Origin: Olivibacter jilunii
GTDB taxonomy: Bacteria > Bacteroidota > Bacteroidia > Sphingobacteriales > Sphingobacteriaceae
Length of the DNA stretch: 64,000 nucleotides
NCBI RefSeq assembly: GCF_900607235.1
Contig: NZ_LR027854.1
Span: forward strand, 186,001-250,000
Reading direction: 5' to 3'
Below the pieces are notes generated by a model that saw only the letters and a program-made list of their open reading frames with translations, was not told the DNA's origin and did no database searches. Numbering within the stretch: the stretch's first letter is position 1; the number at the start of each line of letters is the position of its first letter. This document shows positions 4,938 through 37,794 of this stretch, one piece after another. The translations under genes and the position numbers were made by a program.

Positions 4938-6407
4938 TCAATAACCGGGATTTTGGTCACTCGGATTTAGGGCATTATTATTATCCATTTCCACTTTAGG
5001 AATTGGCCATAAAAAGTGGCTGTCGCTAATCGCTTTTCCTTTTGCCGATTGGATTACTGCACGAACCTGGTCTCTACCCAAGCGTTTTAAGTCGTTCCAT
5101 CGCTTGCCTTCTACCATAAATTCATATGCCCTTTCCTGAAAAACAGCATCGCGGAAAGATTGTTGATTTAATCCTGCCCAATCAACCTGCGGATTGGGTG
5201 TATTGACGTCTACCCCATACGCACGTCTTTTAACTTTATTCAACGCTTCATAAGCTTCAGCAGAGGGACCTCCCTCCAATTGATTTGCGGCTTCGGCATA
5301 AATTAATAGTACATCGGCATAGCGTAGCACGGGCATATCGTTTGCACTAGCGTCAACGGCCACCGAAGCTAAGTCCTTAAACTTTCTAAACTGATAGGGC
5401 TCATTGCCAGGCAGCTGGACTAGTGCTCCTGTTGACCGGTGAATATACGAATCATACAGATTAAATTCTTTTCGCAAATCACGATCCGACCAATTGGCAA
5501 TCAGCGGAAAGGTTTCGCGCGCATAGATGGTGCGGAAACCAAATGGCGCGTAAAGTGTGTTCTCACCATGTATATACACGAGGTATTGGAAACCCAGGCC
5601 TCCGGAAGAAGAGTATTTGAAAGAAAAGATGTCTTCAGCACTCGTTACTACATCAGCACCGAAAACTTTTTCAAAGTCGTTGACTGTAGAAACCGGTACC
5701 AATTGGTATGTTCCCTCATCCATTACTTCCTTAGCAAGGTTACGTGCCTGTTCCCAATTCGCTAACGTTAAATAGACATAGGCCAACAGCGTTTTTGCCG
5801 CCCCTACGGTCGGTCTTCCAGGAATTGTTGCTACAGCAGGCAGATTCGCAATTCCTGTATTTAAATCTGCTATAATGAAGTCGTAGACTTCTTGTTCGGT
5901 ACTCCGAGGCAGATCTGTTGGGTCATTGGAAGATTGCCTTAACGGTACCCCGCCCCAATTCCTAACTAAATCAAAATAAGCCAAGGCCCGAAGGAATCGC
6001 GCTTCTGCCAGTATCTGATTTTTCTTGTTTTCATCCATATTAATAGCCGGCACTCTTTCCAATACAATATTTGCTCTTAAGATGGATTGATAAGCAAATC
6101 GCCAAATAGTCTCTGCACGACCGATATTGGCACCGTCCAAACCATTGTACTCACTGACAGGTCCAAAAGAACCTCTTCCGTTCGCGTAATCCGAGCAAGC
6201 TTCGGTTAGTAACATATAAAAGCCTCCATAATAGCCCAATTCTCGAAATGGCGCATAAATTGCATTAACGGCAGTTTCAGCATCTTGGGCCGTCTGATAA
6301 AAATTTTCTTCTGAAAGTCGATCTATCGGAACTTCTTCCAAAGTTTTACTGCAGGCAGCAAATAAAATGATCGAAAATATATATAAGAGCTTTTTCATTT
6401 TTTCCAT
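4938..6407 (-). CDS. susD: SusD/RagB-family outer-membrane nutrient-binding lipoprotein
   Basis: The N-terminus (IILFAACS, lipidated Cys about residue 19) is a signal-peptidase II site. It is followed by the SusD-like domain: EEVPIDRLSEENFYQTAQDA, the helical tetratricopeptide-like scaffold (AEARFLRALAYFDLVRNWGG) and the C-terminal SusD block (FQERAYEFMVEGKRWNDLKR). At 489 residues it is of usual length. SusD lipoproteins cap the SusC barrel and capture oligosaccharides at the cell surface. The gene starts 31 bp after susC and is followed directly by the oxidoreductase. ATG codons at 6407 and 6398 are both possible starts. The ligand cannot be predicted. Confidence 0.96.
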   Translation of the reverse strand: MEKMKKLLYIFSIILFAACSKTLEEVPIDRLSEENFYQTAQDAETAVNAIYAPFRELGYYGGFYMLLTEACSDYANGRGSFGPVSEYNGLDGANIGRAETIWRFAYQSILRANIVLERVPAINMDENKKNQILAEARFLRALAYFDLVRNWGGVPLRQSSNDPTDLPRSTEQEVYDFIIADLNTGIANLPAVATIPGRPTVGAAKTLLAYVYLTLANWEQARNLAKEVMDEGTYQLVPVSTVNDFEKVFGADVVTSAEDIFSFKYSSSGGLGFQYLVYIHGENTLYAPFGFRTIYARETFPLIANWSDRDLRKEFNLYDSYIHRSTGALVQLPGNEPYQFRKFKDLASVAVDASANDMPVLRYADVLLIYAEAANQLEGGPSAEAYEALNKVKRRAYGVDVNTPNPQVDWAGLNQQSFRDAVFQERAYEFMVEGKRWNDLKRLGRDQVRAVIQSAKGKAISDSHFLWPIPKVEMDNNNALNPSDQNPGY

Positions 6408-6438
6408 AATTTTTGTTGGAACCTTAATATTTTGTTAT

Positions 6439-9400
6439 TTAAAAACTTACTTTCAGCCCCATGGTATAGGTTTTTGCCACAGGGTAACTGGTTTGGTCTA
6501 TACCCAATGTAGTGGGCGAATTAGCTGTTCGGCTACTTACTTCGGGATCATACCAGGAATAGTCGGTGATGGTAATTAAGTTTTGTCCGCTTACATATAA
6601 TTGTAAAGATTTAATCTTGCTACTTTTCAACGGGACATCATAAGCCAACCGGATATTTTTAAACCGAATAAAGGAACCATCTTCTATAAAGCGGTTTGAC
6701 TCCCGGAAGCTGGAACCAACGCTGATAGCTGGATATGGTGCATTTGGATTTGGATTTTCAGGTGTCCAGCGATTTAATATATCCGCGATCTGGTTTTCTC
6801 CGAAATTGAAAGAATTGGCCTGGTTTGACAGATTAAAGTTGAACAAATCGGCTCCTTGCACTCCCTGAATAAAGATATTCAATGAAAAATTTTTATAGCT
6901 TAGGTTGTTATTGAAGCCAAAAATAAAATCGGGATTGGGATCGCCTAGGATTGTTCTATCCTCATTGTTAATTACACCATTGCCATCCAAGTCCTTATAT
7001 TGTATACGCCCCTGTTCATTCAAGCCATCTTCCAAGAACCCATAAAAAACACCCACCGGATAACCTTCCCGGATAAGATTGGGACTAATACTAAGTGGAA
7101 TAGATAAACCGGATCCAAATACATCCGCATGATTAGCTAGTTCGATTACCTTATTTCGATTAGCTGAAAAATTAACAGAGGCGTCCCATTTAAAGGTTCC
7201 TCGGGATATATCGCCTCCCAACTCGAATTCAAGACCCTTGTTTCGAATACGACCAATGTTTTGCATTTGATTTTGATAACCCGTGGAGGTTGCTTGTGGG
7301 ACGTTGGCTAACAAGTCTTTTGTGTTTTTTATATAGTAATCAACCGTTAGGCGCAAACGCTCGTCAAATAAGCCCAAATCAAAGCCAATATTACTTTGTG
7401 TGGTAGTTTCCCATTTTAAGTCCGGATTCGGCCGGGTATTTCCTGGTGCAAAGCCTGTGTTCAACGCATCTCCAAGAATAATATTAAAACCGGAAAGCAC
7501 ATTCAACGAGCCATAGGGAGAGATTGCGGTATTTCCCGACTGTCCCCAGCTGGCCCGTAGTTTTAAGTTGGAAATACTGTTGACATCGCTAAGAAATTCC
7601 TCTTCTTTCAATCGCCATCCAAAAGCCGCTGAAGGAAAATAACCCCATTGACTACCGGCCCCAAAACGAGAGGATCCGTCTGCCCTTATACTCGCAGTTA
7701 AAAGATACTTATTTTTATAAACATAATTTGCCCGAAATAAACCGGAAATCAACTTCCATTCGTCAATACCGGATGTTGGGGTAGCAATGACTGTTCCTGA
7801 TCCAAGGTTATTATTTTGCAATATATCGGAAATAAAGCCACTAGCTCCCGATGAGTTCGTACTTGCCACCTCTGATTGATAAGTAACACCCGCCATTAAA
7901 TCCAAGGAATGATCGTTAAATGTCTTTGCATAATTCAAAATATTCTCATTTAAGAAGTTTGTCCTTGTGAAATAATTGGTAGAAGCATTACCTGCCGGTG
8001 TTGACCTGATTAAGCGGGAAGAGTAATAGTCTCTTTTGGAATTGGCATAATCTACACCAGCAGAAACTTTTAGTGTCAACCCTTCTATAAAGGTATATTG
8101 TAGCCCGAGATTGGCTAACACGCCGCTTCCCGTTGTTCTGTCTACGCGTTCTTTGGCTAAAGCTACCGGATTCTCCGCCGCATTAGAGCTAAATGAATAA
8201 GGCACCACGTTGGAATAATTGCCATTTTCGTCATAAACAGGCACAGTAGGTGGTGCGACTAAAGCAGCGGAAACTACTCCGGACCCTCTTGATTGATTAT
8301 CATTTGTGATGGCATTGTTAATGGTACGACTCAATATGGTACTTAAGTTTACTTTAAATTTGTCAGACACCTCCTGCTCTAAATTGGAACGCAGCGACCC
8401 TCTTTTATATCCTGAGTTGATAACAATACCATCCTGACCGAAATAACTTCCCGATACTGAATAGCGGGTCCTATCATTTCCGCCCGCGATATTGAGACTG
8501 TGATTTTGAATTGGAGCCGTACGAAAGATGGCATCCTGCCAATCGGTCCCTTCACCAAAACTATTGATTTGCTCTTGTGTAAAATATGGAGCAGCATTAT
8601 CATTACGGGCCCGTTCGTTAGCGATTTCGGCAAACTGTCGGGCATTTAAAAGGTCTATTTTTTTTACCACATTTTGAAATCCGACATAACTGTTAAGTGT
8701 AACCTGATTAACATCTCTCTTTCCACTTTTAGTTGTAATAATAACCACCCCATTTGCTCCTCGAGAACCATAAATGGCCGTTGCAGACGCATCTTTCAAT
8801 ACTTCCATCGATTCAATATCCGATGGATCAAGAATAGTAGGACTACCTGAAAGTGCAAAACCGTCCACCACGTAAAGCGGTTCATTACTACCCAATAAGG
8901 AATTGCCTCCACGGATGCGTATATTCATACTGGCACCAGGTGCTCCTGAACTTTGCACTACTTGCACACCTGCACTTCTTCCCGTTAAGCTTTGCATGGC
9001 ATTGGTTGACGGTAAGGCGGTAATGTCTTCTGACTTTACCGATGAAACGGATCCGGTTAAATCGCCTTTACGAACAGTGCCATATCCGACTACCACTACC
9101 TCATCCAAAGCTGCCTCTCGCGGTGTCATGGTAACCCGTATAGTTGATTTACCGGCGACGTTGATTTCCTGTGTGGCGTAACCCGTATACGAAAAAATCA
9201 GGGTCGCGTTCGAAGCAGCGCTGATCACAAAGTTGCCATCACTATCCGTAGAAGTACCTGTCGACGGACTACCTTTTGTTCGGACAGAAACACCTGGTAA
9301 AGCTTGTCCTTTTTCATCAAGCACTTTTCCTTTTACGGTATTCTGTTCTTGTTTGGAAGTGGCCATAAGCCCATTTGCTGAACTTTGCTTTTCCAATACA

Positions 9401-28559: not shown

Positions 28560-29237
28560 TCAAGACATCACCTTTCCTAACACTTCATCAATCATTCCAT
28601 ATCCTTTGGCCTCTTCCGCCGTCATCCAATAGTCGCGATTTGAAGAGGTATGTACCCATTCATAAGACTGGCCACTATGGTCGGCAATAATTTGATAAAG
28701 CTCTTTTTGAAGTTTGAGTATTTCGCGTGCATTAATTTCCAAATCAGCTGCCGTTCCTTGCATACCTCCCGAAGGTTGGTGAATCATTACCCGAGCATGC
28801 TTCAACGCCGCCCTCTTTTTATCGGTTCCGGCACATAAAAGAACAGCGCCAAACGAAAGGGCTATACCTGTACAGATTGTAGCGACATCCGGAGTTATAT
28901 ACTGCATGGTATCGTAAATCCCTAGCCCCGCATAGACAGAACCTCCCGGGCAGTTGATATACAGCTGAATATCTTTATGAGGGTCGGTTGATTGCAGAAA
29001 AAGCAATTGGGCCTGAATAATGTTAGCCACTCGATCATCTACGGCTTCACCTAAAAAGATAATACGGTCAATCATTAACCTGGAAAATACATCCATCTGT
29101 GCTACATTCAGCTGCCGTTCCTCCGTTATATACGGTGTCATGGAAGCATAGACATTCCGGTTAAACCACCTTTCATATTGGTCAAAGGTATTCCCACTCA
29201 TCCCATAGTGGGATACAGCAAATTTTCTAAAATCCAT
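28560..29237 (-). CDS. clpP: ClpP-family serine protease, divergent paralog
   Basis: 225 residues, against about 190-210 for most ClpP. The catalytic triad is kept: Ser 128 (GIALSFGAVLL), His 153 (VMIHQPSGG) and Asp 202 (SSNRDYWMTAEEA). The residues around the Ser (GIALSF instead of GQAASM) and the loop before Asp 202 (HTSSNRD instead of ERDTERD) differ from the E. coli enzyme. There is a longer N-terminus (about 40 residues before ITEERQL). No clpX, clpA or tig gene is adjacent. It is probably a second, specialised ClpP ring subunit that may pair with the housekeeping one. Confidence 0.9.
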   Translation of the reverse strand: MDFRKFAVSHYGMSGNTFDQYERWFNRNVYASMTPYITEERQLNVAQMDVFSRLMIDRIIFLGEAVDDRVANIIQAQLLFLQSTDPHKDIQLYINCPGGSVYAGLGIYDTMQYITPDVATICTGIALSFGAVLLCAGTDKKRAALKHARVMIHQPSGGMQGTAADLEINAREILKLQKELYQIIADHSGQSYEWVHTSSNRDYWMTAEEAKGYGMIDEVLGKVMS

Positions 29238-29346
29238 ATTTTATCTGTTATTAGTCTTTAGTTGTGTAATTAGCAATCGGCAGAACGTCCTCCATATGGG
29301 CTAATTCTTTCTCTCCTGTTTTTCAATCCGGCCAACCCCTATCAAC

Positions 29347-29613
29347 CTATTGGAAATAGCGTTTAATCCGCTGAATTAAGGTTTTATGTTTAGGATTATG
29401 AAAAAAATCGTGCTCTACCGTTTTTAGTTGTTTACGCAATTCCTGTTGCCCATATTTTTTTATAAGCTTATACGTTTTCTCTTGCCAAAAGAAATCATCT
29501 TTTAGCGCTGAATCTATTATTAGTCGCGCGTCCAATAGCAACCGTGCTTCTGTATCCAGCTCATTATGTGAATAAGCATCGAGTAAATACACATTATTCA
29601 AGGAAGTCTTCAT
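29347..29613 (-). CDS. Small protein coupled to an ECF sigma factor
   Basis: The ATG at 29613 (MKTSLNNVYLLDAYSHNELD) overlaps the end of the sigma gene by 20 bp, which suggests translational coupling. A frame open to 29703 exists, but its upstream part is only the shadow of the sigma gene. The 88-residue product is helical and charged; TEARLLLDARLIIDSALKDD resembles the N-terminal sigma-binding helices of anti-sigma factors, but no membrane segment or zinc motif follows. It may be a soluble anti-sigma factor. No family is assigned with certainty. Confidence 0.65.
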   Translation of the reverse strand: MKTSLNNVYLLDAYSHNELDTEARLLLDARLIIDSALKDDFFWQEKTYKLIKKYGQQELRKQLKTVEHDFFHNPKHKTLIQRIKRYFQ

Positions 29614-30139
29614 AGTGTAGCGATTTTTCTTTAATGAAAGCTCTAACTTTTTCCAGACATTTGAATTTCTGGACAGTTGCCGAACGTTCGCTGCTAAAGC
29701 CAAATTGTTTGGCTAATTTTCCCATGGAGATTTTATCATAGTAGAAAGTTTTTAGCAAATTTAGACAACGGTTTCCGACTTTTGTCAGCAAGGCCAGCAA
29801 ACGTTCATCAGACATTTGTCTATTTGTATCTTCATCCATCATTTCTACATCAGCCGATAGTGGTTCATGGTTAAGTCCAAGCTTATATTGATGGTTCCAA
29901 AGATGTTTAACAACACCGAAAATATAGGCTGGAGCGGTAGTTTTGATAAGGTGTCTATTACATACGATTTGCTCATAGTATATTACGAGCGCATCCTGAA
30001 ATATATCTTTTGCCTGCTCCAATGTTCCACCTTTTTTACTGATGTACTTAGCAACCGAGGGAAAAGTCTCACGGTAGAATGTTGTAAACAAATCCTTTGA
30101 AAAAATTACGTGCTCTTCACACGCCTCTGATATTTCCAT
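29594..30139 (-). CDS. ECF-type RNA polymerase sigma factor
   Basis: 181 residues. Region 2 (FYRETFPSVAKYISKKGGTL, EQAKDIFQDALVIYYEQI) and region 4 (LLKTFYYDKISMGKLAKQFG, then FSSERSATVQKFKCLEKVRA) are visible, although more divergent than the sigma factor at 11156-11743. No FecR or SusC gene is linked; instead a small protein overlaps its 3' end. Its regulon is unknown. Confidence 0.88.
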   Translation of the reverse strand: MEISEACEEHVIFSKDLFTTFYRETFPSVAKYISKKGGTLEQAKDIFQDALVIYYEQIVCNRHLIKTTAPAYIFGVVKHLWNHQYKLGLNHEPLSADVEMMDEDTNRQMSDERLLALLTKVGNRCLNLLKTFYYDKISMGKLAKQFGFSSERSATVQKFKCLEKVRAFIKEKSLHYEDFLE

Positions 30140-30513
30140 ATTCTTCGTTTTTATTGGGATGTGTATAAAAAAATCAATATATCACCCTCTAAATTAAAAA
30201 AATTTAATCTACTGTTTGTTATCAACAACCGGCGTCAATGGGCCCCTGTTTCTGCAAGCAAGATCTAGGCTATTTATTAGCATTAAGTTTTAAGTTATAG
30301 ATTTGAAGTATTACGTTGCTACTTAGACAATTGTTTTGATACTGGACACCCGTGTTTTGACACTAATGATAAGTAATAACGACCCAAATTAATAGCACCC
30401 CTGAAATCAGGGATTTTTGCTTTTTTTAAGTCAAAATAAACAATAAATCCAGTTTCCTTACGCTAATTATTAGCATATTCGCAACACCTATTTAAATTAA
30501 TTTCATTCATAAT
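30140..30513. other. Long non-coding gap between the ECF sigma gene and the Sel1 operon
   Basis: A+T-rich, 374 bp, with no convincing reading frame. It contains near-repeated segments TTTTGATACTG (about 30333-30343) and TTTTGACACTA (about 30355-30365) and the terminator-like hairpin at 30399-30427. It should hold two divergent promoters, which I cannot place confidently, and could encode a short RNA. Confidence 0.6.
30399..30427 (+). terminator. Intrinsic terminator or attenuator upstream of the Sel1 operon
   Basis: CCCTGA (30399-30404) and TCAGGG (30407-30412) form a short stem, followed by TTTTT and TTTTTTT tracts (30414-30427). It points towards the plus-strand operon, whose first ATG is 87 bp further on, and no gene upstream on the plus strand needs a terminator. 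It would therefore end a short leader RNA or small RNA. Confidence 0.65.
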
Positions 30514-32994
30514 ATGACATTAGAACAGCAATATTCAACTATTCTAAATAACATCAGCCAAAACTCGCTCAATCCAAAAGTTTATGATCGTTCGTCACTA
30601 CACCATCAAAAAACCTGGTTTGAAGGACTGGCCACCTTGGAAATAGCTGTCCATAATTTACCCCAACAAAAACAGGAAGTCGTTGACTTATATGAAGAGC
30701 TCTTTTCAGAAGGTTTGGACTTTAAAGCCTCATATGAGTTAGACGAGATGGACTACGCATTTTATTGGGATAAGATATTGGCGATTTTAAGTGCACTCGC
30801 TATCCATCATACAGAGGTTTATGCGCAAATTGCTTTCCAATACAATGAGACCCGTCGTATGTATCGTAACAATGCTAAATTCCATTATTATCTCAACTTA
30901 GCTATTGAAACAAATGTTCCCGTGGCCAAAGCGGTTGCAGCTTATTTTTATTACTATGGAATCAATACAGAAAAAGACAAAGAAAGAGCCAGTCAGCTCT
31001 TCCGTGAAGATAGTGGTGACTGGAGTGTACTTTATCAAGCCTATATCCAACTGAACGAGAAGCAGTTTGAATTTCTGCCTGCTGTTATTGAGCAATTAAA
31101 AAGCAGCAGTGACAAAAAGATAAAAAAGAATGCATTGATTTTAGAAGGTAGTTACTTAGAGGCGATTGGGAAGCCGGAAGAAGCGCTATCGGTTTTTGAA
31201 CAATCATATAAGAGCGATTATTCTGCGTTTTCATTAACTAGAGTCGCCTTTATAAAACACATGCTAGACAATACGCATAAAGAAGCATCCATGAAGCTCT
31301 GGAAAGAAGCAGCCAGCCTAGGTTCTATAGAAGCGATGAATTATCTTGGCGTCAACACCTTTCCGGAAGTTTATACCCAAGAAGCCTATACTGAAACCGT
31401 TCGTTGGTTTTCTCTTGGATATTTGTACAACAATGCTTACGCTGCTTACCGTTTAGCTCTTATCAGGCTTTATGTTGAAGGTTGGGAAGAGAAGGCTATT
31501 GGCTTTCGTCTGCTAGAAGAAGCCATAGAAGGAGGGTCGCTAGATGCACTTATTGAGAAAGCAGAGATTTATACAGAAGGTCGAATAATTGAGCGGGATG
31601 AAAAAATGGCCTTTGAGCTTTTTCAAAAAGCCGCTAAAGAAAAAGATGCTCCTTATGCTTACGTACGATTAGGCTATCTTTATGAAATCGGTGCCGGCCC
31701 GGACGGTGAAAAAGACGCTATAACAGCTTTAGATATGTATGAAAAGGCCGTCGAAAAAGACCATCCATACGGTTATAGTAACGCGGGACGCATGTATCGT
31801 TATGGTATAGCCGGAGAAATAAATATAGAAAAAGCAAAGGCTTACTTTGAAAAGGGAGTCGAGCAAAACATCCCCTTTTCAATAACAGAATTGGCGTTCA
31901 TGTATGAAGATGGTACCTTAGCTCAAGATTATAAAAAAGCTTTTGAACTATTTGGCAAAGCAGCCGAAGGGAATAGTGCTTACGCGATGTACTGTTACGG
32001 CCAATATCTACAAAATGGCTATAATGATGGAGAAAAAGCTCCCGAACAAGCCTTCTATTGGTTTCAAAAGGGGGCTGAGCTTCAGGAAGTCAATTGCATT
32101 TATGAAACCGGTCGCTGCTATCGTTATGGTCTCGGCGTAGAAGAAAACCCCGATCAAGCACTGTATTATTATCAACAGGCAGCCGATGCCGGTTATCCCC
32201 GTGGGTTGGTAGAATTAGCGCTTTGTTACGAATATGAATATGGTGTAAATTTCGATGCTGAGAAGGTCTTAAACCTTATGATAAAAGCTGCCGAACAAGG
32301 CTACGCTTTCGCGCAATATAAAGTGGGGGTATATTATATGCATGGCAGCTTGGGCGAACAGGTTCCTATCAATTCTGAACAAGCAATTATGTGGCTTAAC
32401 AAAGCGGCAGATGCGGGTTATCCATATGCCTATGTAGAACTCGGAGATTATTATTTATGGGATTATGATAATCTAAATGAAGCGGATAGAGCTTTTGCAT
32501 TCTATGAAAAAGCTTCCGAACAGGATGTAATAGCAGAAGGATTAGGCGTTTGTTATGAGTACGGTATAGGCATCGATTATAGTATGAGCGAAGCTTTCAA
32601 GTATTACGAGATGGCAGCGAACAAGAACGTCATTGGTGCCATGTACCGATTGGGAAATTGTTACTTAAATGGTAATGGAGTAAGTGAACAACCGGAAGAA
32701 GCATACAAATGGTTTTTTAATGCGGCACAACAGGGTAATGTTCCTTCTCAATATCTATTAGGAAAGCTTTTGCTGAAAGGGAAAGGTGTAGCCATGAATA
32801 AGGAAGAAGGTATTGAATGGTTACAAAAAGCAGCAGAGCAGCAGTATGCTGCTGCACAATATGAATTAGGCAATTGCTACTTGATGGGTGACGGCCTAGA
32901 AGAAAATGAAGATAATGCGATGTATTGGTTTGAGCAAGCAGCAGAAAAGGGACATGAACGCGCCATCAAAATTGTGGGTGGTAATAGAAGATGA
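30514..32994 (+). CDS. Giant Sel1-repeat protein (first gene of the Sel1/Hsp90-like/helical-repeat operon)
   Basis: 826 residues, cytoplasmic (no signal peptide or membrane helix). After an N-terminal helical region of about 260 residues come about 15-16 Sel1-like repeats with the pattern A-x-Y-x-LG-x-x-Y-x-x-G-x-G-V and an AA-x-x-G helix, for example AMYRLGNCYLNGNGV and AQYELGNCYLMGDGL. Sel1 repeats form curved solenoids that hold partner proteins. The gene ends 6 bp before the Hsp90-like gene, so the two products are likely partners. No enzymatic domain is visible. Upstream lies a terminator-like leader hairpin. Confidence 0.9.
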   Translation: MTLEQQYSTILNNISQNSLNPKVYDRSSLHHQKTWFEGLATLEIAVHNLPQQKQEVVDLYEELFSEGLDFKASYELDEMDYAFYWDKILAILSALAIHHTEVYAQIAFQYNETRRMYRNNAKFHYYLNLAIETNVPVAKAVAAYFYYYGINTEKDKERASQLFREDSGDWSVLYQAYIQLNEKQFEFLPAVIEQLKSSSDKKIKKNALILEGSYLEAIGKPEEALSVFEQSYKSDYSAFSLTRVAFIKHMLDNTHKEASMKLWKEAASLGSIEAMNYLGVNTFPEVYTQEAYTETVRWFSLGYLYNNAYAAYRLALIRLYVEGWEEKAIGFRLLEEAIEGGSLDALIEKAEIYTEGRIIERDEKMAFELFQKAAKEKDAPYAYVRLGYLYEIGAGPDGEKDAITALDMYEKAVEKDHPYGYSNAGRMYRYGIAGEINIEKAKAYFEKGVEQNIPFSITELAFMYEDGTLAQDYKKAFELFGKAAEGNSAYAMYCYGQYLQNGYNDGEKAPEQAFYWFQKGAELQEVNCIYETGRCYRYGLGVEENPDQALYYYQQAADAGYPRGLVELALCYEYEYGVNFDAEKVLNLMIKAAEQGYAFAQYKVGVYYMHGSLGEQVPINSEQAIMWLNKAADAGYPYAYVELGDYYLWDYDNLNEADRAFAFYEKASEQDVIAEGLGVCYEYGIGIDYSMSEAFKYYEMAANKNVIGAMYRLGNCYLNGNGVSEQPEEAYKWFFNAAQQGNVPSQYLLGKLLLKGKGVAMNKEEGIEWLQKAAEQQYAAAQYELGNCYLMGDGLEENEDNAMYWFEQAAEKGHERAIKIVGGNRR

Positions 32995-33000
32995 TGTCAA

Positions 33001-34788
33001 ATGAAGGATAAACAACAATCATATTTATTCCAAGTGAATTTAAAGGGAATGATTTCCCTATTGTCTGAACACCTATATAGCAACCCCAATACCTTTGTTC
33101 GCGAACTTTTACAGAATGGTGTAGACGCCATTACGGCGATCAAAACTTTGGACGAACAACATATTGGCAGTATACAGGTTCACCTGAACGAAAAGCGCAA
33201 TGAAGCAATATTTGAAGATAATGGCATTGGTCTGAAAGAGGATGAAATCCATAAATTCATTGCAGTTATCGGTGAAAGCTCCAAGCGAGAAGCATTTGAA
33301 GCGAATGATTTTATCGGTAAATTCGGTATAGGTCTGTTGTCCTGCTTTGTTGTCAGCAACGAAATTATATTAGAGACGCGGTCAGCGTTGGCAGACAAAG
33401 TGCTTCGATGGACAGGCAAAGCCGATGGAACCTATCAATTGGAAAGGATTACAGAAGAACGACCGATTGGTACGCGTATCATTCTACAGGCAAAAAAAGA
33501 ATGGGCACATCTATTTACAACTTCGGCCTTTGAAAAGAATCTTCGTTTTTATGGAGATCTACTCCCCATACCGATTACACTTAGGAATGGCCATGAGGCT
33601 ATTTTAATTAATGAGCATACAGGAAAGTGGTTAAACGATGATTACACGAAAGACGAGCTACTTGAGTTGGGTAAAAGCACTTTTCATACTAATTTTATCG
33701 ATGCCTTTCGCATAGATGCTCCAAGTGGAAAATTAAAGGCCGTCGCTTACGTGCTGCCATACAAAACACAATTCAGCGGTAAGCAGCAACACAAATTATA
33801 CCTAAAACGTATGTTTTTGAGCGAGGATGACTGTAGACTGCTTCCGAAATGGGCATTCTTCATCCGCTGTATTATTAATACCGATGGATTAAGTGCCACT
33901 GCATCACGAGAGTCTCTTATGGTGAACGGCGAACTGAAGGCGACACAGAAGGAAATTGCAGAAGGTATTAAATCCTATCTAAAAACGATCGGGGTGGTTG
34001 ATCCTGCTATCTATCATAAGCTGATCAGCACGCATTACCTTCACTTAAAAGCGATTGCGGCAGAAGACGTCGATTTACTGAAAGCATTCATGGATGATTT
34101 ACCTTTTGAAACCAGCAAAGGGATAAGAAGTTTTAAAAGCATTAGAACCTACCAGAAAAACATTTACTACACGGCCAATATTGACGATTTTAAGCAATTA
34201 AGACGAATTGCCGAGCCGCAGGGATTGATGGTCCTCAACGCGGCTTATACATTTGAAGAAGAATTATTAAAAAAAATGCAACGATTGGACAGCGCTTTGT
34301 CCATTGAAGAGATCTCTCCTGTTCATTTGTTGAAGAGTTTCCGGGATTTGGACGAGGTGTCAGCAAACGCCTATATGAACTTCACCGAAAAAGCGCGGAA
34401 AATTCTAGAGACTCTAAATTGTGAAGTCACCGTTAAACGTTTTCAACCAACCGATATTCCGGCAATCTACATCGCCTCGAATGTGAACCATACAGGAAAA
34501 AGCAGCCATATCAAAGCATCTGCAAACAATCCCCTGGCAGCCACATTAGGAGCATTTACACGGACGAATGAAACAAAACCACAATTATGTTTCAATGCCG
34601 ACAATAGCTTGATTCAGGCTGTGTTTCCGATTAAAGATTCGTATGTAGTTAATTCGATTGTTCATATTTTATATGTCCAATCACTTCTTTTAGGCAAATA
34701 TCCGGTAAGTGATAAAGAAATGAATCTTTTCAATGAAGGACTTCATAATATGCTGATTATGGGGATTGATAATTTTATAAACATTTAA
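33001..34788 (+). CDS. Diverged Hsp90-family (GHKL) ATPase
   Basis: 595 residues, a little shorter than HtpG. The Hsp90 nucleotide pocket is complete: FVRELLQNGVDAI (catalytic Glu 35, Mg-binding Asn 39), FEDNGIGL (Asp 73) and IGKFGIGLLSCFVV (lid glycines about 105-111). The middle domain keeps SATASRESLMVNG, equivalent to the LNVSRE segment with the ATP-contacting Arg. The C-terminal ~200 residues differ strongly from HtpG, and I cannot see the usual dimerisation helices. It is not the housekeeping htpG; its tight linkage to two solenoid proteins suggests a dedicated chaperone or ATPase switch. Confidence 0.88.
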   Translation: MKDKQQSYLFQVNLKGMISLLSEHLYSNPNTFVRELLQNGVDAITAIKTLDEQHIGSIQVHLNEKRNEAIFEDNGIGLKEDEIHKFIAVIGESSKREAFEANDFIGKFGIGLLSCFVVSNEIILETRSALADKVLRWTGKADGTYQLERITEERPIGTRIILQAKKEWAHLFTTSAFEKNLRFYGDLLPIPITLRNGHEAILINEHTGKWLNDDYTKDELLELGKSTFHTNFIDAFRIDAPSGKLKAVAYVLPYKTQFSGKQQHKLYLKRMFLSEDDCRLLPKWAFFIRCIINTDGLSATASRESLMVNGELKATQKEIAEGIKSYLKTIGVVDPAIYHKLISTHYLHLKAIAAEDVDLLKAFMDDLPFETSKGIRSFKSIRTYQKNIYYTANIDDFKQLRRIAEPQGLMVLNAAYTFEEELLKKMQRLDSALSIEEISPVHLLKSFRDLDEVSANAYMNFTEKARKILETLNCEVTVKRFQPTDIPAIYIASNVNHTGKSSHIKASANNPLAATLGAFTRTNETKPQLCFNADNSLIQAVFPIKDSYVVNSIVHILYVQSLLLGKYPVSDKEMNLFNEGLHNMLIMGIDNFINI

Positions 34789-35859
34789 TTGACAGAAATG
34801 CGTTACACGTTACAGATACAAAAGTTACTAAATTTAGCGGAGGAACTCCCTCCACATTCCAAAGATCGGATTAAACATTATTTACAGGCAATCCGTTTAG
34901 CCGATCAAAACGACGACGTGGAATGGGCTTTCGAACTGAGAATCGACTTGTTAGATGCAGAATGGGGACTAGCTGATCGGCAACACTTTATTCCCACTTT
35001 TACATGGCTGTTAGATGCTTATGATCATAATCCGGATTTATTCGATGCAGAAGAACTCCTTTGGAAATATAAATGGATTATTGACGAAGTGTATTCTAAC
35101 CCCGACGTCAGTCTCGAACAAACAGAGCAAATACTTGCTGATTTCAAAAGACGTATAGAAGCAGAAGGTTACGGGTTGAGAGCATATTATACTAAACAAT
35201 TGCACGAAGCTTTAGACCAGAAGGATGTAGAGCGAACACGTTACTACCTCGATTTAGTAAATAGCGTCCCGCGGGATAACTTAAGTGATTGTCAAGCCTG
35301 TGAAATGGATACCGAAGTGTTAGCACTGTTAAATGTAGGCGATTTTAGGGCAGCTTACGATAAGGCGCAACCTCTATTGGCAAAGCAGTATTCCTGCGCA
35401 CATGTGCCACTTGTCACCCATTGCAGTTTGGCTTATTACGGCATAAAATACGGTGCAAAAGAGATTGCCTTGGAACAATTTAAATTGGCGGAAGAATCTT
35501 TAGTATCAATCAGCGATACCAGTTTAGTACGACCTACCGGCCAACTTATTACCTACCTGTTCCATGTAGATGAATCGCTGGCATGGCAATATGTAGAAAA
35601 ATATCTACCATGGAGTTTAGAAAGCGACAGAAACCGTACTTTCTTTTTTGCAAAGTATATGACAGAAGGCTTAAAACAACTCTCCTCCGACCAAACCGCC
35701 CCCATCGAGCTTCCTGTTGAGCATCCTCTATACAACGAAAAACAACATTATTTAGTGAACGACTTGCTTCAGTATTACTATCAACAGGCTAGCGATTTAG
35801 CAGAGCAATTTGATAGCCGAAACAGAAATAAGAATTTCGCAAAACAGCTTACAGAATAA
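34789..35859 (+). CDS. Helical-repeat (TPR-like) protein, third gene of the Hsp90-like operon
   Basis: 356 residues if the TTG abutting the previous stop is used, or 353 from the ATG at 34798 (MRYTLQIQKLLNLAEELPPH). It is all helical and acidic, with TPR-like pairs such as KDRIKHYLQAIRLADQNDDV, DVERTRYYLDLVNSVPRDNL and GDFRAAYDKAQPLLAKQYSC. There is no signal peptide. The zero-gap junction with the Hsp90-like gene implies translational coupling and probably a complex. A terminator follows at 35871-35919. TPR-type proteins are known co-chaperones of eukaryotic Hsp90, so this may be an adaptor of the unusual ATPase; that is inference. Confidence 0.8.
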   Translation: MTEMRYTLQIQKLLNLAEELPPHSKDRIKHYLQAIRLADQNDDVEWAFELRIDLLDAEWGLADRQHFIPTFTWLLDAYDHNPDLFDAEELLWKYKWIIDEVYSNPDVSLEQTEQILADFKRRIEAEGYGLRAYYTKQLHEALDQKDVERTRYYLDLVNSVPRDNLSDCQACEMDTEVLALLNVGDFRAAYDKAQPLLAKQYSCAHVPLVTHCSLAYYGIKYGAKEIALEQFKLAEESLVSISDTSLVRPTGQLITYLFHVDESLAWQYVEKYLPWSLESDRNRTFFFAKYMTEGLKQLSSDQTAPIELPVEHPLYNEKQHYLVNDLLQYYYQQASDLAEQFDSRNRNKNFAKQLTE

Positions 35860-35870
35860 AAACTGAAGTA

Positions 35871-35919
35871 GGTGTCTCCTATATTTGTTTCAAGCAAATG
35901 GTAGGAGACCCTCTTTTTC
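35871..35919 (+). terminator. Terminator of the Sel1/Hsp90-like operon
   Basis: GTCTCCTA (35874-35881) pairs with TAGGAGAC (35902-35909), with further pairing of ATTTG and CAAAT inside and a T run at 35913-35917. The convergent peptidase gene stops at 35920, so the hairpin may also act from the other side. Confidence 0.8.
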
Positions 35920-37794
35920 TTATAATACACCGACTGTAATACTGGAAGGATGCTTTTCGTCATGATAAATCCGATGAGTGGCTTTCTGAAAATCCTTGTT
36001 CTCTGCCTCTTTATAAATATCTATAAATTTCTGCGGATTACGATCGACCAAAGGAAACCACGAGTTTTGGATTTGGATCATGATACGATGCCCTTTTTTA
36101 AATGTATGTGCCACATCAGGCAGCGTATAGTTGACCGCCGTAACCGCTCCCGGTATAAAAGGTTCGGGCTTCTCAAAACTATTACGGAATTTTCCTCTCA
36201 GAACTTCGCCCCTAACTAGCATTTGATAACCACCTAGTAAGGTTCCTTTCGGATTAGGTTCCAAATTTGGCGTATCATCCGGATAAACATCGATTAATTT
36301 CACCACGTAATCTGCATCGGTTCCGGAGGTAGAGACTTTTAATTTCGCCATTAAAGGGCCTACCAACGTGATGTCTTCGGTCAAAATATCGCTTTGATAA
36401 ACCATGACATCAGGCCTTTTGGAAGCAAAACGCTGGTCGTCGATCATGTATTCTCTACTCCTTGATTGGTTAACTCCGTCCTGATAAGGAACCGGAGCAT
36501 TGGGATCACTTACATACTCGTCAAAACTATGCTGCTCTGTTGGTTTATGGAAACTTAATTTACCGTTAGATTGCAGATAAAGTTCTCTATTGGTACTTTC
36601 TTTCGGAGGCCAAGTATTAAAATGTTTCCATTTATTAGTTCCTGTCACAAAAACAGTTGCTTCTGCTGCATCAAACGAACCTACTCCCTTCAAATAATAA
36701 GTAAAAAAGGGTAATTCCAAATTCTTTTGGTACCAAGTACTAGTTTCCTGTCCAAAATGGATATCGCCGAAAAAGTCACCTTTGGACCGCACCCAACCTC
36801 CATGAAACCAAGGCCCCATGACGAGCCGGTTATTTGCCTTCGGACTGCGTTTTTCGATCGCTTTATAGGTATGAAGGGCACCATATGTATCCTCCGCATC
36901 AAAAAAACCGCCTACAACCATAACCGCTGGCTTGATATTGTCTAAGTGGTTAACAATCTCGCGTGCTTGCCAAAATGTATCCAGCGTTCCATGTTCCATA
37001 AGATCATTCCAGAATCGAATGCTATCTCCAAAATAACGCTCTTTAACATGTTTCAGAGCACCTATTTGCATAAAAAAACCGTAGTTATCATTCATATTAA
37101 ATTTAACTCGCTGTGGAGCATTCGCCGGTGTAACCGGTTTTGGTCTTGGAACACCAAAACTACTGTAGAAATTAAAGGCGTCTGCCAGAAACAACGCGCC
37201 GTTATGATGAAAATCGTCTCCCCTAAACCAATCAGTTACCGGTGCTTGTGGAGAAACGGCCTTCAATGCCGGATGTGCACCAGGTAAGGCCGCAGTTGAA
37301 TAAAAACCAGGATAAGAAATTCCATAGAGGCCGGCTTTCCCGTTGTTATGGTCAATATTCTTCAATAGCCAGTCGATCGTATCAAAGGTATCACTGCTTT
37401 CATCTATTTGATGCTTTTGTTTCTTTTCTTTGATATGCGGTCGGATATCCTCATAAACGCCTTCGCTCATCCATTTTCCCCTTACATCTTGATAAACAAA
37501 TATAAAACCCTCTTTAATAAACAAGGGATCTGGCCCTAAGGTATTTTTGTAATTATCTTCCCCATAAGGCGCAACTGTATAGGGTGTACGATTAATCAAA
37601 AAAGGGTACTTTTTGGTTGTGTCTTTTGGAATATAGATTGATGTGAACAGCTTAACGCCATCTCTCATAGGAATATAACGCTCAATTTTAGTATAATGCG
37701 CCCGAATATAAAGCGAGTCCTCATGCTGCTGCGCAAAAACGCTATTGAACAGAAAAAAAACAATAAAAAAGAAAGGGAGTCCTAATTTTATCAT
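35920..37794 (-). CDS. Secreted CocE/NonD-type hydrolase (S15 X-Pro dipeptidyl-peptidase family)
   Basis: The ATG at 37794 starts a clear signal peptide (MIKLGLPFFFIVFFLFNSVF, cleaved at FAQ); the TTG at 37830 is rejected. The product is 624 residues. An alpha/beta-hydrolase domain holds the nucleophile Ser in GLYGISYPGFYSTAA. The N-terminal YIPMRDGVKLFTSIYIPKD is typical of CocE. A C-terminal jelly-roll domain (PEPFIPGAVTAVNYTLPDVA, HTFKKGHRIMIQIQNSWFPL) completes the fold. Such enzymes hydrolyse acyl or glutaryl amides and peptides in the periplasm. Substrate unknown. Confidence 0.92.
   Translation of the reverse strand: MIKLGLPFFFIVFFLFNSVFAQQHEDSLYIRAHYTKIERYIPMRDGVKLFTSIYIPKDTTKKYPFLINRTPYTVAPYGEDNYKNTLGPDPLFIKEGFIFVYQDVRGKWMSEGVYEDIRPHIKEKKQKHQIDESSDTFDTIDWLLKNIDHNNGKAGLYGISYPGFYSTAALPGAHPALKAVSPQAPVTDWFRGDDFHHNGALFLADAFNFYSSFGVPRPKPVTPANAPQRVKFNMNDNYGFFMQIGALKHVKERYFGDSIRFWNDLMEHGTLDTFWQAREIVNHLDNIKPAVMVVGGFFDAEDTYGALHTYKAIEKRSPKANNRLVMGPWFHGGWVRSKGDFFGDIHFGQETSTWYQKNLELPFFTYYLKGVGSFDAAEATVFVTGTNKWKHFNTWPPKESTNRELYLQSNGKLSFHKPTEQHSFDEYVSDPNAPVPYQDGVNQSRSREYMIDDQRFASKRPDVMVYQSDILTEDITLVGPLMAKLKVSTSGTDADYVVKLIDVYPDDTPNLEPNPKGTLLGGYQMLVRGEVLRGKFRNSFEKPEPFIPGAVTAVNYTLPDVAHTFKKGHRIMIQIQNSWFPLVDRNPQKFIDIYKEAENKDFQKATHRIYHDEKHPSSITVGVL

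Follow-up and report, generated by a model that had tools for sequence, protein, structure and literature searches.

A second, diverged bacterial Hsp90 inherited as one unit with an unnamed helical protein and accompanied by a Sel1 protein in Sphingobacteriaceae

We analyzed a 64,000-nt stretch of Olivibacter jilunii DNA (contig NZ_LR027854.1, positions 186,001 to 250,000 of the forward strand; hereafter the window), with a focus on three consecutive genes that encode a Sel1-repeat protein (gene 1), a second, diverged Hsp90 (gene 2) and a protein of an unnamed helical family (gene 3). The locus contains the following features, given in window coordinates.

30514-32994, plus strand: gene 1, 826 aa, Sel1-repeat solenoid (open reading frame (ORF) list and Pfam)
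33001-34788, plus strand: gene 2, 595 aa, second Hsp90 of NCBIfam NF010683 / PRK14083, ATPase residues intact
34789-35859, plus strand: gene 3, ORF of 356 aa (353 aa if started at the likely ATG, 34798) with DCxAC, Cys203, WxxKW and FDxRNxN
35866-35922, plus strand: intrinsic-terminator-like hairpin with a T-run, -22.7 kcal/mol, z -5.97

The initial annotation of this DNA had described a three-gene plus-strand operon closed by a terminator, and this layout is borne out: all three ORFs are present, and the hairpin with its T-run was found by folding energy. A consensus terminator scan of 29200-36100 returned five terminator-like sites against 5.3 expected, none of them at the hairpin. As to the annotated gaps, the 6 bp between genes 1 and 2 stand, whereas the 0 bp between genes 2 and 3 would need a TTG start; because homologues begin at the fourth codon of the window ORF, the likely start of gene 3 is the ATG at 34798, leaving a gap of 9 bp.

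Gene 2 is a full-length member of the NF010683 (PRK14083) family, scoring 645.6 bits against a cut-off of 455 over residues 5-591. It is not a member of the canonical HtpG family, since its score with model NF003555 (200.2 bits) lies under the cut-off of 371. The canonical htpG of the same genome is located on another contig (G000:C8) as a 628-aa ORF, making gene 2 an additional Hsp90. Residues E35, N39, D73 and R303-E304 are invariant in 31/31 aligned family members, in agreement with the earlier claim that catalytic residues Glu 35, Asn 39 and Asp 73 and the middle-domain segment are kept; we take the Hsp90 Glu, Asn, Asp and middle-domain Arg to be ATPase residues. The same annotation had seen a C-terminal part different from that of HtpG. 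The BLASTP alignment of gene 2 with the HtpG of its own genome is indeed restricted to residues 15-329, but the HtpG profile covers residues 9-571 and Pfam HSP90 covers 260-589, so this part is diverged. A replaced Hsp90 C-terminal domain is not supported by these two profiles.

The genomic company of this Hsp90 is constant. Of 399 genomes sampled from Sphingobacteriaceae, the family of the window (phylum Bacteroidota), 21 carry an Hsp90 over the NF010683 cut-off, and gene 3 is found in the same 21 genomes and, as a truncated remnant, in one more (G759). The N-terminal profile of the Sel1 protein matches in 20 of the 21 Hsp90-positive genomes and in 0 others among the 399, in a search that scored only some first-look candidates per genome. 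Because the three genes co-occur across the same genomes, their grouping is far above chance. At the 20 family loci besides the window (with L033 and L034, which duplicate L091 and L092, counted once), gene 3 adjoins the Hsp90 gene in 20/20, and the Sel1 gene lies directly upstream in 19/20, the exception being L081. The G759 remnant is a C-terminal piece of gene 3 (L117, 8175-8570) with no Hsp90 or Sel1 piece in the 16-kb stretch that holds it; it resembles the scar of a deletion, in keeping with block loss of the module.

Beyond the family, an Hsp90 over the cut-off occurs in 2/395 genomes of a phylum sample (the window genome and G289) and in 5/395 of a class sample (the window genome and four others). 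Gene 3 is adjacent at all five Bacteroidota loci outside the family, including L122, where the gene order is swapped and gene 3 lies upstream of Hsp90. Six further records come from the plasmid collection (two Listeria, one Paenibacillus and three Streptomyces), five of them over the family cut-off and the second Listeria record identified by tblastn similarity only; the phage collection supplies a single readable contig, faecal and 6.6 kb long, that scores over the NF010683 cut-off, and gene 3 follows Hsp90 in all seven. The tblastn search of plasmids gave 225 records in total, seven of them at 1e-36, and the records examined in the range from 1e-36 to 1e-20 are those named here; from the phage-collection list, 2 of 34 records were examined. 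Taken together, Hsp90 and gene 3 are adjacent at 33/33 readable loci (26 Bacteroidota, three Bacillota, three Actinomycetota and the faecal contig), a count in which Bacillota and Actinomycetota are represented by six records, two of one Listeria species, and which excludes the over-cut-off control genomes of Deinobacterium chartae and Corynebacterium glutamicum and an Actinomyces chromosome, as well as a pair of phage-labelled Listeria contigs whose lengths, 1607 and 1488 bases, are too short for judging. A search of 72,556 plasmid records with gene 3 alone as query returned seven, six of which lie beside an NF010683-type Hsp90, the seventh being from Actinomyces oris. The distribution of the module is patchy. 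Neighbours that vary freely among genomes, the outcome that the initial annotation had named as speaking against a dedicated assembly, did not occur for gene 3.

The Sel1 gene behaves differently from gene 3, being linked to the Hsp90 only within the window's family (20/21). The stretches fetched gave no Sel1 match at the five Bacteroidota loci outside the family (0/5) or at the loci from elsewhere (0/7), the latter result being weaker for GC-rich Streptomyces, where ORF calling missed genes. The core is therefore a two-gene module; a three-gene core is rejected on the five outside loci and the one family locus that give no Sel1 match. Gene 1 itself, annotated from the outset as a solenoid partner, matches Pfam Sel1 (PF08238) well above the cut-off (263.6 against 30.7 bits, ten stretches) and is built of an N-terminal part of ~260 aa followed by at least ten Sel1 repeats. 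Upstream of it, on the minus strand (28560-30139), lie genes for a ClpP-like protease and a sigma-factor-like protein, recognised by eye only and, for the latter, with no Pfam match; both are outside the conserved unit.

Grouped by two flanking families in common, the 26 Bacteroidota loci represent 13 contexts; one family in common as the criterion reduces these to 11. Trees of Hsp90 and gene 3 from 31 loci agree closely (patristic r = 0.976, a value reached in none of 2000 permutations); the gene 3 tree recovers 22 of the 23 Hsp90 splits with support of at least 0.9, and there is no supported conflict. Hsp90 and gene 3 are inherited as one unit. Since co-inheritance is expected for adjacent genes, the trees show movement of a unit and not protein contact.

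No Pfam family, tetratricopeptide repeat (TPR) families included, matches the window gene 3 protein above cut-off; 19 members of its family give no NCBIfam match, a PDB search with the family profile yields nothing convincing (best E 0.0081, a designed protein), and no relative was found among viral contigs. TPR models at E <= 0.05 are matched by 3 of the 19 members, and one Listeria copy barely reaches the TPR_8 cut-off (26.1 against 25.7). A signature of WxxKW, DCxxC, a third Cys and DxR is kept in 35/35 aligned homologues: W92, K95, W96, D167, C168, C171, C203, P207, D342 and R344 are invariant, and A170 and N345 are each present in 34. The three invariant cysteines, including the CxxC, suggest from their pattern a zinc site or thiol switch. 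A model of gene 3 built from three sequences is nearly all helical (predicted local distance difference test score (pLDDT) 76.5, predicted template modelling score (pTM) 0.62).

The gene 3 domain forms the N-terminus of a protein of 1011-1055 aa in four actinomycete records, three from Streptomyces and one from Actinomyces. The large S. globosus and Actinomyces proteins are related in profile comparison (E 8.8e-29), and when these two were scanned, a C-terminal TPR was above the Pfam cut-off in S. globosus and just under it in Actinomyces. The Actinomyces oris homologue lies at 5917-8952 of plasmid locus L047, as the N-terminus of a 1011-aa protein; ahead of it lie two genes, one annotated with a YbjN domain and the other matching YbjN weakly. 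Listeria differs in copy number, with a tandem pair of gene 3 copies by one Hsp90 at one locus (L036, 8806-10774) and a single copy at the other (L051).

Hsp90-like genes with other partners occur elsewhere. In E. coli and Salmonella, an Hsp90-like gene abuts a gene for a partner of 768/769 aa at the following positions near fdhD.

E. coli SE15, L093, 8001-12144: Hsp90-like pair
Salmonella, L049, 5974-10121: Hsp90-like pair

In two E. coli genomes, fdhD and yiiG flank the pair; in the Salmonella contig it is found downstream of fdhD, where the surrounding genes are lipoprotein-like by eye. Among complete E. coli genomes, the Hsp90-like gene is present in 245/5426 and the partner in 245/5426, each gene being counted separately. 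The enterobacterial Hsp90-like proteins show Hsp90-type ATPase residues in alignment, and the Salmonella protein scores 285.8 bits, below the NF010683 cut-off. A CxxC in the partner was noticed by eye only. On Pseudanabaena plasmid NZ_AP017561.1 (L050, 5944-8577), a related Hsp90-like protein of 877 aa (382.9 bits, likewise below cut-off) has a TIR-like stretch in its C-terminal part (PF10137 at E 0.001, under the cut-off); its gene adjoins an annotated TIR-domain gene, with a TPR-annotated gene two genes downstream, and the protein is possibly an Hsp90-TIR immune protein.

We propose that the conserved unit encodes a dedicated Hsp90 machine with gene 3 as its obligate adaptor or co-chaperone, to which a Sel1 protein was added in the window's family, and assign this reading a probability of roughly 0.55. 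Hsp90 is an ATP-driven clamp. The second Hsp90, of the PRK14083 type, would act in this way with gene 3 as obligate partner; gene 3, as a helical co-chaperone or adaptor, would contact the Hsp90 and probably also its client through a conserved surface comprising the CxxC and one more Cys, perhaps a thiol switch or zinc site. The large Sel1 solenoid may have joined the operon as a further adaptor in the window's family. From these data we infer the physical interaction, the adaptor or co-chaperone role and the function of the cysteines. Speaking for this reading are the shared distribution, the constant adjacency even where gene order is swapped, the many flanking contexts, the congruent trees, the gene 3 signature, the intact ATPase residues, the all-helical gene 3 model with its weak TPR matches, and the parallel Hsp90-like pair of E. 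coli. The dedicated Hsp90 assembly of the initial annotation is well supported as a genetic unit, with a core of two genes and not three. With odds slightly short of even, we extend the proposal to a whole subfamily of second bacterial Hsp90s that would need a dedicated helical partner with an invariant Cys triad (zinc or thiol switch), the enterobacterial pair having arisen or diverged separately and Sel1 being a third subunit that sphingobacterial lineages acquired later.

Several results weigh against the co-chaperone proposal. Eukaryotic TPR-clamp co-chaperones bind the C-terminal MEEVD of Hsp90. No MEEVD-like tail is present in the 31 Hsp90 tails inspected, and therefore this rule cannot apply; binding between Hsp90 and gene 3 would differ from that of eukaryotic TPR co-chaperones. 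The predicted Hsp90 structure (pLDDT 43) is too poor for use, and TPR proteins are among the best Foldseek matches of the gene 3 model, none at E <= 0.001. TPR matches of the Salmonella partner are all below cut-off, and profile comparison detected no homology between the E. coli/Salmonella partner and gene 3. The 415-kb Actinomyces oris record that bears gene 3, the one record covered for this species, has no Hsp90.

Adjacency and co-inheritance are, moreover, equally compatible with a pair of an Hsp90 and its client. That gene 3 is the single dedicated client of the Hsp90, matured by it and serving as a sensor or enzyme whose active or metal site lies at the invariant D-C-C-C-P / D-R residues, is the chief rival reading, and adjacency data cannot separate it from the co-chaperone reading. 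The invariant polar and Cys residues resemble a functional site more than a scaffold, actinomycete records show the gene 3 part as the N-terminal portion of a larger protein, the Actinomyces oris homologue has no Hsp90 on its record, and the Listeria copy number varies (two or one) beside one Hsp90. However, no enzyme family was recognised for gene 3 in Pfam, NCBIfam or PDB profile searches, and the listed best matches of its all-helical model are repeat and scaffold proteins. We regard a client as the unlikelier identity of gene 3. An ordinary htpG duplicate with incidental neighbours is barely credible: the canonical htpG elsewhere in the genome could render a second copy redundant, but co-occurrence and adjacency hold across phyla and flanking contexts. 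Incidental neighbours are rejected by the co-occurrence, adjacency, flanking-context and tree tests.

The initial annotation had also raised a stress or defence switch, in which an Hsp90-partner complex would sense damage or infection and free an effector. The patchy distribution of the module and the cyanobacterial plasmid protein, with its TIR-like C-terminal stretch and a TPR gene two genes downstream, speak for such a role in stress or against phage. By contrast, PADLOC matches of the window trio and nine related proteins are partial and confined to the ATPase domain (e.g. TmtA), and the window trio has no effector domain in Pfam. In PADLOC, the 74 proteins taken from the flanks in 13 contexts match 27 families at E <= 1e-10, each family through one protein; the 25 families listed are of SNF2/DEAD-type helicase and viperin-like kinds, and no defence neighbour recurs. 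A defence system is rejected by similarity and neighbourhood, the examined loci having no consistent defence context, and we hold the switch to be improbable.

Eukaryotic Hsp90 depends on many co-chaperones. To our knowledge, bacterial HtpG is generally said to be without dedicated ones. A bacterial Hsp90 that is tied genetically to a single helical partner across three phyla would offer a minimal two-component system for the mechanism and origin of co-chaperones; through this linkage, an unnamed protein family acquires a function that can be tested and, if the proposal is true, Hsp90 co-chaperones exist in bacteria after all. Searches of the PubMed Central (PMC) literature, most subscription papers and all preprints aside, turned up no title or abstract opening on the operon or on such an Hsp90-partner pair. 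In the accessible portions of the Listeria papers that mention lmo0942 or lmo0941, no function is given for the pair (PMC3534079, PMC6901971, PMC10393277). We infer that these are the Listeria homologues because fri adjoins the Hsp90 gene in the record and, in the accessible literature, lmo0942; lmo0941, probably a gene 3 copy, appears there among loci with signs of selection (PMC6901971).

Among the closest known systems is the NCBIfam "HSP90 family protein" model (NF010683 / PRK14083), of which the window Hsp90 is a full-length member and whose listing names no partner; the annotated status of an undescribed system is hence too strong for the Hsp90 itself, and the new part is its gene 3 neighbour. 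TmtA of the Tiamat defence system, as modelled in PADLOC, resembles gene 2 in the N-terminal ATPase domain, residues 13-122 of the window protein matching only 25-123 of the 1302 model positions. A survey of HtpG groups A, B and C reports, in its available text, two copies in different groups, e.g. in Streptomyces coelicolor and Bacteroides fragilis, and the words "operon" and "TPR" appear nowhere in that text (PMC1525184). M. tuberculosis HtpG associates with DnaJ2, according to the part of the source available (PMC10269695). The E. coli/Salmonella pair is alike in its Hsp90-type ATPase and abutting partner, and unlike in the NF010683 score of its Salmonella member, which lies below cut-off, and in a partner with no homology to gene 3 detected and with TPR matches below cut-off only. 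Bacteria are described, in the accessible part of the source, as having no Hop orthologue (PMC7688965). Compared with the Hop/Sti1 type, the window Hsp90 has no MEEVD, and gene 3 has no TPR above cut-off and carries instead its Cys/FDxRNxN signature; what the bacterial pair, known by gene linkage only, shares with Hop/Sti1-type co-chaperones is a putative helical-repeat partner of an Hsp90 ATPase.

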